This document shows, piece by piece, positions 876 to 18,562 of a stretch of 24,984 bases of DNA. The notes beneath the pieces are model-generated. The model saw only the letters and a list, made by a program, of their open reading frames with translations. It did not search any database and was not told the DNA's origin. Where the stretch lies: positions 1-24,984 of the IMG/VR virus record IMGVR_UViG_3300042569_000466; one strand, given 5' to 3'. Each line of letters begins with the position of its first letter. Position 1 is the stretch's first letter. The translations under genes and the position numbers were made by a program. Origin of the DNA: a virus.

Positions 876-1091
876 TCACACACCTTCCCTTTCATCACCG
901 GGCATCCGGCTGTTAGAACGAAGCCCCAAAGGACTCACAATGTCTGTTACGTGACGCTTGCCACGCTTCGCATAGCCACGGCTCTGACTAGCAAATCGAG
1001 CCGCAACCTTCGCACTATGCCCATCGCCTAGACGCTTGACCGTGAAAACCTTGATCGAACCATCGGGCTGAACCCGCTCAACCTTACGCAT
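876..1091 (-). CDS. Small basic unknown protein (71 aa)
   Basis: ATG 1091-1089 to TGA 878-876. The start is preceded by TTAGGAG with a 6-nt spacer. The protein begins MRKVERVQPDGSIKVFTVKR and is strongly basic in the middle (SRGYAKRGKRH), so binding to nucleic acid is possible but is only inference. A 10-bp palindrome, CGCATATGCG (1088-1097), covers the start codon. The stop overlaps the alternative GTG start of the next gene. C/G-ending codons dominate, as in the neighbouring 126-aa gene. No family is recognised. Confidence 0.65.
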   Translation of the reverse strand: MRKVERVQPDGSIKVFTVKRLGDGHSAKVAARFASQSRGYAKRGKRHVTDIVSPLGLRSNSRMPGDEREGV

Positions 1092-1523: not shown

Positions 1524-1583
1524 TACTCCTTACTGGTTTCTATCTTCCTTCACTTCGTTCAGGAAGATATAAACCTAGTAAGG
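1524..1583 (-). promoter_or_regulatory. Leader hairpin overlapping the ribosome binding site of the zinc-ribbon gene
   Basis: Three successive arms pair: CCTTACT (1528-1534) with AGTAAGG (1577-1583), GGTTT (1535-1539) with AAACC (1571-1575), and TATCTTCCT (1541-1549) with AGGAAGATA (1561-1569). One C/T mismatch and one bulged T interrupt a stem of 21 pairs with an 11-nt loop. On the leftward RNA, the arm nearest the gene ends in AGTAAGG and runs into the Shine-Dalgarno sequence AAGGAG. Folding would therefore hide most of the ribosome binding site. A translational switch is inferred, not shown. Confidence 0.5.
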
Positions 1584-1954
1584 TAGTAGGGTTTCTGGCC
1601 AAATCTCCATTATCTCTACTCTATAGAGAGTAGAGATAATAAACTATCTTCATAAGTTAGACTAAATAGTGACAAAGTCACCTATTTAGTAACTAACTAT
1701 AAAGATAGAAAAATAGACTACGAAGTAGTCTAAGTGTACAATACTACACAATCTACGATTGTAGTAGTATTTGGCTTAGTTATACACTATCTACTGTTAC
1801 TATGTAACAGATAGAGAGTGTGTAGTTGGGACTATAAAGAATACCAACTATGTTGGTATAAGTATACTACTACTCTGTAGTAGTATATATATTATATACT
1901 ATAGAGTACTATGTACTCTTAGTATATGTGCTGACTAGTAAACTCTAGTACTAA

Positions 1955-1976
1955 TAGGTATTATATATAATACCTA
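1955..1976. repeat. 22-bp perfect palindrome
   Basis: TAGGTATTATA followed directly by TATAATACCTA is a perfect, almost purely A/T palindrome at the right end of the hairpin array. As RNA or single strand it forms a 9-bp stem with a TATA loop; as a duplex it could be a dimeric protein-binding site. Confidence 0.75.
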
Positions 1977-2040: not shown

Positions 2041-2140
2041 AGTCAAAACTGGCTAGCGCACACTCACATATGCATATGCGTACCCCCGTTACACACCCCC
2101 CACATATATATAATTGTACTGTTTATATTTTTGGTACATT

Positions 2141-2169: not shown

Positions 2170-2281
2170 ATTAAGGTTGTGTTAAGTTTTGTGTTTTGAT
2201 GTCCGATTGTTGGTGTTGGTGGTGTTATATATGGTGTGGGGTTGTTTTTTTTTATTCTATTTTTGTTTTGGGGGTGGTTGT

Positions 2282-3046
2282 GTGGCTGTTCAGTCTAATG
2301 CGTTGACTAGTGGTTTGTCTGATTTGGCTACTACGGCGAGTAATGCTGTGGCTGATTTGGCGGGTGTTCAGGCGGGTGCGGATGTGTTGGCTTCTCAGTT
2401 TGTGGATGTTAAGAATGCTATGCAGGATTTGGTTGATTTTGCTAATACTATGCGTAATAGTGGTTATTATACTCCTGTTGGCTCGTTAATGCCTTTTGCT
2501 GCTGCTACTGCTCCTGATGGTTGGTATTTGTGTAATGGTGCTACTTGGGCTAGTTTGTCGTTGTCTGCTGGTTCTCCTTTGTATGATTTGTTGCAGCCTT
2601 TGGGTTATCTTGGTGTTCCTGATTTGCAGGGTCGTACTGTTGTTGGTATTGGTACTCATGCTGATGTTAACGATTTGAATGATACTGAGGGCGAGGCTAC
2701 GGTTGCTAATCGTACGCCTAAGCATACGCATAATCTTGGTACTCATACGCATACTATTAATGATCACGCACACAGTAATGGTGATTTGTTTACTAGGCTT
2801 ATTCCTTCTACTCAAAATGTTTGGTATGGTGTTGCCAGCAGTACGAATGATGCTTGGTATAACAATTGGAATGGTGGCGGAATGAGTCTTGTAAATAACT
2901 CTGTTAATAACTATTTTAATGGTGGTATTGATATTGGCGGTAGCACTAGCGGATCTGGTCAATTAACTTCTAATGGGCCTAGCACAAATACTAGTAATAT
3001 TTCTACTGCGCCTTATATCACGCTTAATTATATTATTAAATCTTAG
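2282..3046 (+). CDS. Tail collar domain fibre protein
   Basis: A 254-aa protein with the phage tail collar fold found in short tail fibres and receptor-binding proteins. Residues 65-87 contain the collar signature (PVGSLMPFAA, then APDGWYLCNG), and 110-124 contain LGVPDLQGRTVVGIG. Residues 148-162 hold the His-rich HTH repeats often seen at metal-binding fibre tips, and the protein ends in APYITLNYIIKS, a typical collar C-terminus. The N-terminal 60 residues are Ala/Asp-rich and helical. The frame is open back to 2189, but that extension uses a TTG start and encodes an odd Cys/Phe-rich hydrophobic stretch. GTG at 2282, behind GGGGGTGG, is therefore the better start. It sits apart from the other fibre genes, next to the hairpin array. 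Confidence 0.8.
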   Translation: MAVQSNALTSGLSDLATTASNAVADLAGVQAGADVLASQFVDVKNAMQDLVDFANTMRNSGYYTPVGSLMPFAAATAPDGWYLCNGATWASLSLSAGSPLYDLLQPLGYLGVPDLQGRTVVGIGTHADVNDLNDTEGEATVANRTPKHTHNLGTHTHTINDHAHSNGDLFTRLIPSTQNVWYGVASSTNDAWYNNWNGGGMSLVNNSVNNYFNGGIDIGGSTSGSGQLTSNGPSTNTSNISTAPYITLNYIIKS

Positions 3047-15127: not shown

Positions 15128-18100
15128 ATGCCTAATTTATCTACTAGTACGCCGACGTATAATTTTCCGTATCCTCTTCCGGGGGATAGTGTTTCTAATA
15201 CTTATGAGCGTATTAGACAATTAGCGGTTAGGGTTGAAGAGACTTATACTCTTATGGGTATTATTCCTAATACGTTTGCTGGTGTTCAAGGTCCTCAGGG
15301 TCCGCAGGGTTTTCAAGGTCCGCAGGGCTTTCAAGGCGCACAGGGTTTTCAGGGCTTTCAAGGTACTCAAGGATATCAGGGTGCTCAAGGCGCTACTGGT
15401 GCTACCGGCGTTGAAGGACCTCAAGGCAGTCAGGGCGCTCAAGGCGCTACCGGCTCGCAGGGTTCTCAAGGACCACAGGGTCATCAAGGATTTCAAGGTG
15501 CTACTGGTTCTCAAGGTTTTCAAGGAGATACTGGTCCTCAAGGCTTTCAAGGTGCTCAAGGCGCTCAAGGATCTACAGGCGCACAGGGTATTGAGGGACC
15601 GCAAGGAGAAACGGGTAGTCAAGGTAGTCAAGGACCGCAAGGCGCTCAAGGTAACACTGGAGCACAAGGTTCGCAAGGGCCCCAAGGATATCAGGGGCCT
15701 CAGGGCTTTCAAGGTCATGTAGGCGCTACTGGTCCACAAGGATTCCAAGGACCTCAAGGAGCACAAGGATACCAAGGCGATACAGGCGCACAAGGATCTC
15801 AAGGACCACAAGGCTATCAAGGCTTTCAAGGAGCGACAGGTTCGCAAGGTTTTCAAGGCGCTATTGGTCCTGAAGGTACAAGTATTACTTTTAAGGGAAC
15901 TGTTGCTACTGTTGGTAATTTGCCTTCGTCTGGTAATCAAGTTAATGATGCTTGGATTGTTGAGGCTGATGGTGATTTGTATGTGTGGGATGGTTCTGCG
16001 TGGGATAATGTTGGTCAGATTGTTGGTCCTCAGGGTTATCAGGGCGCTCAGGGCGCAACTGGTGCTCAGGGACCTCAGGGTACTACGGGTAGTCAGGGAC
16101 CTCAGGGAGATGTTGGTACGCAGGGCGCTACGGGTCCTCAGGGCGCTCAAGGCGCTCAGGGTTCTACTGGCGCTACTGGTATTGAAGGACCTCAAGGAGA
16201 TACAGGTTCTCAGGGGCCTCAAGGACCTCAAGGTACTACTGGCAATACTGGTGCTCAAGGCTCACAGGGGGCTACTGGTACTCAAGGCGCAGAAGGACCA
16301 CAGGGAGAAATTGGTGCTACTGGTTCTCAAGGGCCGCAAGGACCGCAAGGTCCTACTGGTTCGCAAGGAGCGACAGGTAGTCAAGGCGCTACGGGACCAC
16401 AAGGTGTTGATGGTCCTCAAGGAACACAAGGTCCTCAGGGTAGTACTGGTTCTCAAGGTCCGCAAGGATCTCAAGGCGCAACAGGTTCTCAAGGTAATCA
16501 AGGTCCGCAAGGATCTCAAGGCGCAACTGGTGCTAGTTCTGATCTTAGTAATCTTACCGATAGTACTGTTTTTAATCTGTTTGGTACTACTCAACATATG
16601 TATCCTATTAGAACTAATAGGGGTACTATTAGTAGTTTTGGTTCTTCTACTACGGTTCAACTTGCTTATACTACGCCTATGGGTGCTAATCCTTGGCAGA
16701 ATAGTATGGATATTTATGGTTCAAACGCTGGTTTTGCCGCGGCTGATGCTGCAACGTCTTTTTATGGGTATGCTTGTATTATATTTAATCCCGGTTCGTC
16801 GGGTATGTCTACGCCTGCTTTTAATGCTTATCCTGAAACGCTTGCATTTTATAATAAGGTTGTTGCGCTTCCGGCGGGAACAACGGGTCAGTGTTGGAAT
16901 GGGGCTACAAATAGTTACGTTACATACACTTTAACAGGTGATTATTATGATGGTGGTGGAACTACTGCCGCAACTGATGCTACTAATACTCTTGTGTGTA
17001 AGTGTACTTTTTCGGGCGGTGGTACTGTAAATACTAGTATGTATGCTAATGATGATACTTACTTTTCGGGTGGTAGTGCTACTTTCTCTATGTTTTCTTT
17101 GCTTACAACTGTTTATCCGGTAGTCACTAGTATTACTAATACAACTACCACTCTTGGGTCTTATCCAATTATCATGATTGGTAATAATGAGCCAATTAAA
17201 AATGATAGTTATCTTTTAACTACGGGTAGTAGTATTAATTTTTTGAGCAATCCAAGTGGCATTTATAGTGTTGGTAATACTATTTATACTTTAGGTACTG
17301 TCGGTGATGAGGCGAAATTTACCGGGCATGATACGCTAGGTAATAAGGCTAACTTACGTTATTCTAATGATAAATGGTATATGCCCGATTCTGGTTTAGT
17401 CCTTGGTGATTATGCTACTACTACTGAGAAGTTACTTGTTCGTGGTGGTACTAGTAAGTTTAATAATAGCGCTAATACTAATAAAGTAGAGATTGATAGT
17501 AGTGTTGCTACTCCGTTAATGAAATTAACAACTGCTACTGGTGCCGGTAGCGCTTTAAGCATTGACCATACTGCTAGTGGTACTGCGGCGACTATTACTA
17601 ATAATAGTAGTGGGGCTGCTCTGGAAATTACAAATGCTAATGTTGGTACTTATACTCAAGTACTTAATGTTACTCAAGAATCTTCTGGTAACGCTGATAT
17701 TGCGGCTACATTTTATAATGCTGGTATTGGAGTTTATTTTACTCCTGCAAGTAAATTTGCTTTTTACTCGTCAAGTGGGCTTACTAAGTTTGCTAGTAAG
17801 GTTCTGGGGTCTAATACTGTTACTAGTGTGGCTACAAGTACGCATACTATGGTTGCTGATACTATGCTTACTAATGCGTTCTACAATTATACTGGCAATG
17901 GCGGTGCTTTTACTACGCCTACTGCTTCTCAAATGTATTCTGCTATGAGTGGCACTGAAAGTAGTTCTTTTAAGTTTACTATTGTTAATAATTCAAGTGC
18001 TGGTAATGCTGGTATGGCTACTCTTACAGGCAATACTGGCGTTACTATTTATAATAGTAACGGTTCTAAAATTCCTTATAATAGTAGTAAAACGTTTTTG

Positions 18101-18562
18101 TGGGTTCAAACTAGTTCTACTGCGGCTATTGTTTATAATCTTAGTAGTACTGGGGATGTTAATACTGTCGCGCTTACTTCGCCTATAGAAACATTTACTA
18201 CTCGTGCTGCTATGACGGGTACTGTTAATTATGATGTTAGTACTCAGGCTGTGTTGTATGCTAATACTAATGCTACTGCTAACTGGACTCTTAATGTTCG
18301 TGGAAGTTCTGGTGTTTCGTTAAATACGCTTCTTGCTACTAATCAAGCAATCACTATTGTTCTTATTAATCAGAATGGTACTACGGCGTATTATCAGACG
18401 GCTATGACTATTGATGGTACTAGTGTTACGCCTAAATGGAGCGGTGGTACTGCTCCTACTAGTGGTAACGCTTCGTCTAATGATGTGTATACGTTTACTA
18501 TTATGAAGACTGCTAGTGCTACTTATACTGTTCTGGCTAGTGTTACTAAGTGGGGTGCTTAG
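15128..18562 (+). CDS. Collagen-like tail fibre protein (1144 aa)
   Basis: ATG 15128 follows AAAGGAGG. The short N-terminal domain (1-50, with LPGDSVSNTYERIRQLAVRV) probably attaches to the virion. Two uninterrupted Gly-X-Y blocks follow: 66 triplets at residues 52-249 and 56 at 300-467. They are built of GPQ, GFQ, GAQ, GSQ, GAT and similar units, with Gln or Thr at Y and almost no Pro there. They are separated by a 50-residue beta domain (VATVGNLPSSGNQVNDAWIV, then DGDLYVWDGSAW) that is common in phage fibres. Residues 470-1144 are Ser/Thr/Asn-rich, beta-structured and probably form the trimeric shaft and host-binding tip. No intramolecular chaperone domain was recognised. It is translated just before the glycine-rich adhesin. 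Confidence 0.85.
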   Translation: MPNLSTSTPTYNFPYPLPGDSVSNTYERIRQLAVRVEETYTLMGIIPNTFAGVQGPQGPQGFQGPQGFQGAQGFQGFQGTQGYQGAQGATGATGVEGPQGSQGAQGATGSQGSQGPQGHQGFQGATGSQGFQGDTGPQGFQGAQGAQGSTGAQGIEGPQGETGSQGSQGPQGAQGNTGAQGSQGPQGYQGPQGFQGHVGATGPQGFQGPQGAQGYQGDTGAQGSQGPQGYQGFQGATGSQGFQGAIGPEGTSITFKGTVATVGNLPSSGNQVNDAWIVEADGDLYVWDGSAWDNVGQIVGPQGYQGAQGATGAQGPQGTTGSQGPQGDVGTQGATGPQGAQGAQGSTGATGIEGPQGDTGSQGPQGPQGTTGNTGAQGSQGATGTQGAEGPQGEIGATGSQGPQGPQGPTGSQGATGSQGATGPQGVDGPQGTQGPQGSTGSQGPQGSQGATGSQGNQGPQGSQGATGASSDLSNLTDSTVFNLFGTTQHMYPIRTNRGTISSFGSSTTVQLAYTTPMGANPWQNSMDIYGSNAGFAAADAATSFYGYACIIFNPGSSGMSTPAFNAYPETLAFYNKVVALPAGTTGQCWNGATNSYVTYTLTGDYYDGGGTTAATDATNTLVCKCTFSGGGTVNTSMYANDDTYFSGGSATFSMFSLLTTVYPVVTSITNTTTTLGSYPIIMIGNNEPIKNDSYLLTTGSSINFLSNPSGIYSVGNTIYTLGTVGDEAKFTGHDTLGNKANLRYSNDKWYMPDSGLVLGDYATTTEKLLVRGGTSKFNNSANTNKVEIDSSVATPLMKLTTATGAGSALSIDHTASGTAATITNNSSGAALEITNANVGTYTQVLNVTQESSGNADIAATFYNAGIGVYFTPASKFAFYSSSGLTKFASKVLGSNTVTSVATSTHTMVADTMLTNAFYNYTGNGGAFTTPTASQMYSAMSGTESSSFKFTIVNNSSAGNAGMATLTGNTGVTIYNSNGSKIPYNSSKTFLWVQTSSTAAIVYNLSSTGDVNTVALTSPIETFTTRAAMTGTVNYDVSTQAVLYANTNATANWTLNVRGSSGVSLNTLLATNQAITIVLINQNGTTAYYQTAMTIDGTSVTPKWSGGTAPTSGNASSNDVYTFTIMKTASATYTVLASVTKWGA

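Follow-up and report, generated by a model that had tools for sequence, protein, structure and literature searches.

A Chain of Hairpins With a Conserved Fold and Free Sequence Ahead of a Zinc-Ribbon Gene in Related Phage Contigs

We propose that a dense array of hairpins in the virus record IMGVR_UViG_3300042569_000466, all 24,984 bases of which were analyzed (the window), is a structured phage element in which the sequence changes freely in matched pairs and the fold is conserved. The same array with strong compensatory change is present in more than 30 related contigs, and this change exceeds both column-shuffle and slid-partner controls, as in a covarying structured element; sequence change that is restricted to pairs implies that the folded shape matters. 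The one-directional -35-like boxes beyond the far end of the array make it probable that this is a transcribed 5' leader. Our preferred interpretation, which we hold tentatively and at a little less than an even chance, is that the array is a multi-hairpin leader tract that would act in cis on a leftward early operon. Few natural elements keep their fold through an almost complete turnover of sequence by perfect paired changes, and this tract does so across a leader and a protein-coding gene simultaneously.

Fold and Covariation of the Array

The array is made up of ten strong hairpins in series (P1-P10) at 1528-1976, in agreement with the original observation of ten inverted repeats, the stem lengths and loops of which were also correct. 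P1 (1528-1582, - strand) has 21 bp and shares part of its basal arm with the Shine-Dalgarno sequence (AAGGAG) of the leftward zinc-ribbon gene, and in most relatives its apex on the - strand is C-GNA-G (GAA or GTA). The other nine hairpins are not assigned to a strand. P2 (1609-1640) has 14 bp, of which 13 change on both sides among relatives, and P3 (1644-1708) has 26 bp, a conserved bulged C, a 2-nt bulge, and a tip that is near-invariant among relatives (TGNC-RAA-GNCA-C). The triloop of P4 (1714-1732, 8 bp) is GAA, AAA or TTC among relatives, P5 (1740-1771) has one bulge and both-side changes in 12 of 14 pairs, P6 (1784-1821) also has a bulge, and the loop of P7 (1841-1859) is TAT, inverted to ATA in near-identical phages. 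P8 (1863-1887, 11 bp with a triloop) and P9 (1894-1927) are followed by a weak additional hairpin near 1934-1951 and by P10 (1955-1976), a palindrome in which a leftward promoter-like site has its -10-like TATAAT.

Comparison with dinucleotide shuffles, which had been suggested as a check, bears out the structure on both strands. The RNA fold of 1528-1976 has an energy of -180.6 kcal/mol on the + strand, against a shuffle mean of -104 (z -14.9), and -171.9 kcal/mol on the - strand (z -11.5); the fold with DNA energies likewise has a z of -14.9, and none of the shuffles folds as well as the native sequence. When the whole contig is scanned in 200-nt windows, the three lowest z values (-9.3, -8.9, and -8.6) all lie inside the array and the contig mean is -0.7. 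The stems had been described as unrelated in sequence, and the hairpins do differ from each other, but the 5' arms of all array stems are built from a few A/C/T words. In the arrays of relatives, 5'C-3'G pairs outnumber 5'G-3'C pairs about fourfold (381 vs. 89), whereas other hairpins of the same genomes have 247 and 275, respectively. The idea that the G-free 5' arms guard against misfolding between hairpins was rejected, as randomly flipped pairs keep the hairpins equally well or better in most arrays. A long-range helix between a GGCTGA linker and the P1-P2 linker was also discarded, since by inspection it is not kept in L007, L008, and L018.

A terminase search gave 80 related loci, and extra array members came from searches with the neighboring gene and with the P3 motif. 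Most of the related loci that reach far enough upstream have the hairpin cluster at the same place and with the same order of stems, namely ~14 bp (4-nt loop) followed by 8, 7-8, 7, 8-9, 11, 7-8, and 9-11 bp, mostly with triloops, and in the complete or long relatives that have the array it is the only such cluster in the genome. In the alignment of P2 and P3, 91.3% of the cells pair and both sides change in 29 of the 39 pairs; a covariation score of 0.469 is obtained, compared with 0.167 for shuffled columns and at most 0.133 for the slid-partner control, and it is reached by none of 500 shuffles. For P5 the score is 0.470 (vs. 0.158), again with 0 of 500 shuffles reaching it. The expectation that relatives would retain the stems with compensatory changes was thus borne out. 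One-sided changes of pairs are almost absent from P2 and P3, and the bulges of P3 are conserved while the stems are otherwise perfect. A covariance model of P2-P3 matches the more diverged loci L096, L130, L141, L144, and L033, and has no match in the array-less genomes or in phages Jasmine or Shocker; the group formed by L055 and L057-L060 has the array with no P3-like match. Some relatives have extra long hairpins past the right end of the array (L036, for example with an 11-bp stem, and L141), and the hairpin tract can therefore grow on the right side too.

The Zinc-Ribbon Gene and the Leftward Operon

The array always lies directly upstream of the start of the zinc-ribbon gene (1137-1517, - strand), with P1 against its ribosome-binding site, and the gene on the other side varies, in that a collar gene may be present, absent or replaced. 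The zinc-ribbon protein (126 aa), the product of the first gene of the leftward operon, has an invariant CxxC...CxxC and a basic GRxGKxGxN motif. An HMM search finds the gene in every array locus with coverage, with no match in L061, L063, L065, L066, or the other array-less loci; L061, for example, has neither array nor zinc-ribbon gene. The protein has no recognizable nucleic-acid-binding relative and no relative in PHROGs, Pfam or the PDB, it is absent from isolated phages and from a set of 84,980 genomes of bacteria and archaea, and its predicted structure (mean pLDDT 66) has no fold match. In L025, L028, L036, L038, and L042 it is fused to a protein that is encoded separately in the window at 876-1091 (- strand). 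Further to the left in a complete relative, and reading in the same direction, are genes for an ArdC-like anti-restriction protein, DNA polymerase A, a primase/helicase, and ribonucleotide reductase, and because of this gene content the leftward operon is predicted to be an early or replication operon.

The spacer to the right of the array (1977-2085, - strand) has directional -35-like TTT(T/G)AC boxes that read leftward into the array. Within 1.5 kb of this spacer from 14 relatives, there are 36 GT(A/C)AAA words, which become these boxes when read leftward, and 2 of their reverse complements, and a leftward promoter match of 10/12 is located at 1989-1960 in the window, with its -10 inside P10; the consensus promoter scan as a whole gives 9 matches vs. 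7.1 in shuffles, which is no excess. From these boxes we infer that the array would be transcribed leftward from promoters in the spacer. A possible rightward promoter is present at 2079-2113 (+ strand), where CCCCCGTT is followed by a TATAAT-like box. Both are conserved among array-bearing relatives and are probably part of a rightward promoter region, one that the consensus scan did not flag; CCCCCGTT also occurs in the array-less G005 (L114; G005 position 17402).

A structured noncoding RNA had been among the original hypotheses and the array is indeed structured, but its position, together with the promoter-like boxes that flank it and the ribosome-binding site next to it, suggests a 5' leader rather than a free-standing RNA. 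A free-standing noncoding RNA of the ornate type that acts in trans strikes us as very doubtful. The size and covariation of the array do resemble those of the large phage RNAs ROOL and GOLLD, which are likewise large covarying phage-encoded structures from environmental sequence (PMC12286853), but these are often near tRNA islands and have complex folds (PMC12286853), and they have no match to the array in sequence or structure. None of the 4227 Rfam families, ROOL and GOLLD included, has a match in the window at the curated (gathering) score, those at a relaxed threshold are at chance level, and an Rfam search of eight relatives gave tRNAs only. The array is also a series of simple hairpins with no multibranched fold, and it leaves no room for a terminator ahead of the zinc-ribbon gene.

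The array had been placed between genes at 1528-1976, and it does fold there, but the tract of hairpins runs past 1528 into the adjacent coding sequence. In the zinc-ribbon gene, stems of 5 bp or more number 10 (in 432 nt) in L055 and L096, 8 in L059, 7 in L017, and 4 in the window, compared to a background density of ~2 per kb. Synonymous-codon shuffles of L055, L059, L017, and L096 give 1.1-2.1 stems and the observed counts are reached in 0 of 300. The corresponding p values are 0.007 in L057, L018, and L011, 0.02 in the window, and 0.04 in L036, whereas L038, L028, L025, and L042 have no significant excess. Among control genes from the window, one is marginally enriched in hairpins (0.04) and the others are not. 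On the sense strand, GAA is the loop of half of the coding-sequence hairpins (20/41). The tract therefore covers the leader and the first gene, for up to ~0.85 kb.

Loop Types, Template Switching, and DNA-Level Alternatives

Triloops are found in 103 of 155 distinct array hairpins and C-G loop closure in 93 of the 155. Of the triloops, 26 of 126 are GNA when read on the - strand and 13 of 127 when read on the + strand, against an expectation of ~6%, and the C-GNA-G triloops lean to the sense strand (26 vs. 13). There are no GNRA or UUCG tetraloops in the arrays (0 of 59), and G-U pairs are very rare on both strands, to be read with the limits that the rRNA control is small and that the method also undercounts wobble pairs there. 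A wobble asymmetry (on the + strand, 1 G-T vs. 11 A-C) was not decisive as a marker of the RNA strand: several of these pairs are artefacts of the alignment near bulges, and the control with E. coli rRNA is too small.

The C-G closure, the enriched C-GNA-G triloops, the lack of RNA-type tetraloops and the near absence of wobble pairs are all features that favor the main rival explanation, in which the hairpins form in single-stranded or supercoiled DNA and, at the divergent junction, serve as a replication origin, as a site where a primosome or primase is loaded, or as a promoter region of the N4 type with extruded hairpins. Extrusion of the N4 promoter hairpins needs a C-G closing pair and a 5'G...A3' triloop, and the N4 early promoter hairpins resemble those of the array in having short perfect stems and 3-nt loops closed by C-G (PMC4496689). 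However, the C-GNA-G loop of N4 is in the minority among array hairpins, with GNA loops making up only about one-fifth of the triloops, and the array stems are often longer, have no shared promoter sequence and stand ten in series. Nor is a virion RNA polymerase recognized, as the 1924-aa candidate in the virion region has no polymerase match in PHROGs, Pfam or the PDB by sequence methods. The array region is AT-rich and, in complete relatives, coincides with the lowest point of cumulative GC skew, but this minimum is at the same junction in array-less relatives, so that it is no marker of the array and is not decisive as evidence for an origin. An origin, moreover, would not need the array to be tied to one gene. 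On this balance we consider a DNA-level element unlikely, while still giving it substantial weight. A packaging or recombination site had also been suggested originally, and nothing in the analysis points to it directly.

The loops also bear on how the stems remain perfect. When fully different loops on identical arms are compared, 10 of 23 pairs are exact reverse complements of each other, where chance predicts about 1 in 27. Between the window and L009, whose TerL sequences are <1% apart, the arrays are distinguished by a single paired change accompanied by a loop deletion, a single inverted loop, and a single loop with a substitution, and no stem has an unpaired change. Such loop inversions and immediate paired changes are the signature of DNA template switching, the marks of which have been described for RNA genes (PMC8794818). 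The process itself is a known one (PMC3820800), as are palindromes in coding sequence (PMC6649704), and it probably helps to keep the stems perfect. The original claim that each helix must be kept by selection was consequently too strong by itself. Because template switching can perfect stems without selection, evidence for selection has to come from elsewhere, and it is provided by the order of the hairpins, their bulges, the tip of P3, the absence of such clusters elsewhere in the genome, and the bias at synonymous sites.

A mostly mutational account, in which template switching in a locally single-stranded and strongly transcribed stretch perfects near-palindromes that have little function of their own, would explain the loop inversions and the differences from L009, but we regard it as improbable. 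The order, number and spacing of the hairpins, as well as the bulges and the P3 tip, are kept over a large divergence, these genomes have no other hairpin cluster, and synonymous sites bend to form hairpins. The coding palindromes of Nematomorpha mitochondria are comparable in that they are perfect inverted repeats in functional coding sequence with dynamic gain and loss (PMC6649704), whereas those of the array are short triloop hairpins that are limited to one phage gene and its leader. Because loop inversions and paired changes are seen between phages that are ~1% apart, the tract also allows a direct test of how compensatory change comes about, whether in two steps under selection or in a single template switch.

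A Cis-Acting Leader, Known Elements, and Likely Hosts

We favor the cis-acting leader described above because covariation is far above both controls, because the array stays upstream of the zinc-ribbon start even in relatives that lack or have replaced the gene on its other side, and because the zinc-ribbon gene is found at all array loci with coverage and never in array-less relatives. The same conclusion is drawn from the directional -35-like boxes (36:2) with the 10/12 promoter match, the excess of coding-sequence hairpins over synonymous shuffles, the lean of C-GNA-G triloops to the sense strand, the survival of the P3 bulges in otherwise perfect stems, and the replication genes that read in the same direction further left. 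Its observed basis is the position at the ribosome-binding site, the conservation of the fold, the linkage to the gene, and the extension into coding sequence. Leftward promoters in the far-side spacer (~1960-2060) would start transcription through the array, and a chain of some nine or ten hairpins would then form on the nascent RNA. In what is the least certain step, the chain would act in cis on the operon, either by keeping RNA polymerase processive or by shielding the untranslated leader from termination and decay, much as HK022 put RNA serves a phage early operon. P1 may also control how accessible the ribosome-binding site is, the zinc-ribbon protein translated from the array RNA is a candidate partner or autoregulator, and at the DNA level template switching within the hairpins would help to keep the arms perfect. 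Several observations run counter to a leader function, including the lack of GNRA and UUCG tetraloops, the preference for DNA-type triloops, the rarity of G-U pairs and the nearly equal folding of both strands. In addition, the putative partner protein lacks a recognizable nucleic-acid-binding relative and the predicted promoters are consensus matches only.

The HK022 put RNA is a cis-acting early-leader antiterminator that binds the zinc-binding domain of the RNA polymerase beta' subunit and suppresses termination (PMC9378689). Like the proposed leader it is a structured RNA ahead of phage early genes, just downstream of an early promoter (PMC9378689), which for the array is predicted from the directional -35-like boxes. 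It is, however, ~70 nt in length with two stem-loops of shared sequence (PMC9378689), in contrast to the approximately ten hairpins of the array, which extend over ~430 nt, are free in sequence and continue into the coding region. A type III toxin-antitoxin RNA (ToxI-like) was rejected because it requires tandem direct repeats of one unit ahead of the toxin gene and the array hairpins differ in sequence. In phage lambda, the hairpin element nutL separates an early promoter from the first early gene, and the N protein is small and basic. The arrangement in the window is similar in having a hairpin element ahead of the first early gene for a small basic protein, but nutL has one boxB hairpin compared to ten in the array, and the zinc-ribbon protein is unrelated to N by any search used.

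Neither the array nor the zinc-ribbon protein has a match in Rfam, PHROGs, Pfam or isolated phages. We are somewhat inclined to see the array as a structured phage early leader that could well form a separate class, put-like in position and N4-like in loop type; in the full sense of either definition, it is neither a put RNA nor a set of N4 hairpins. A more specific possibility, which we put forward as speculative, is a new class of phage element in which a sequence-free chain of DNA-type triloop hairpins over an early leader and its own zinc-ribbon coding sequence would be kept by template switching together with selection, with protein and tract as one module, for example in a complex that is bound to the leader and serves antitermination, protection or the start of replication. 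Should protein and tract indeed form such a module, they would represent a new form of phage control over an early operon or the start of replication.

To the right of the array are podovirus-type genes for a tail collar, terminase, portal and major head protein. The major head protein of the window is closest to those of Arthrobacter phage Jasmine and its relatives (~30% identity), and Jasmine is described as a podovirus of actinobacteria whose direct terminal repeat measures 1330 bp (PMC5513430). Actinobacterial hosts are likely since the head protein is nearest to the Jasmine group, and the array-bearing phages are probably a group of uncultured phages that infect actinobacteria. No nucleotide relatives of the window were found among isolated phages, and a tRNA/tmRNA search of the window found none. 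The structural block encodes a 1144-aa protein (15128-18562, + strand) with a long collagen-like GPQGxQG repeat region. The tail collar gene (2281-3046) differs by 24% from that of L009 and by 8% from that of L004, with terminases that differ by <1%, and it is missing from L018, L019, L022, and L068; it is a swapped gene that is possibly related to host range. In L061, a contig of 46,281 bases, the terminase segment is 89% identical to that of the window and the other structural genes ~34%, which represents strong mosaicism at the array junction. Hairpins, strain variation or a terminal repeat may disrupt assembly at the array, as the metagenome contigs L004, L005, L014, L021, L023, L033, and L034 end inside or next to it, with L004 and L005 ending at nearly the same base of P3.
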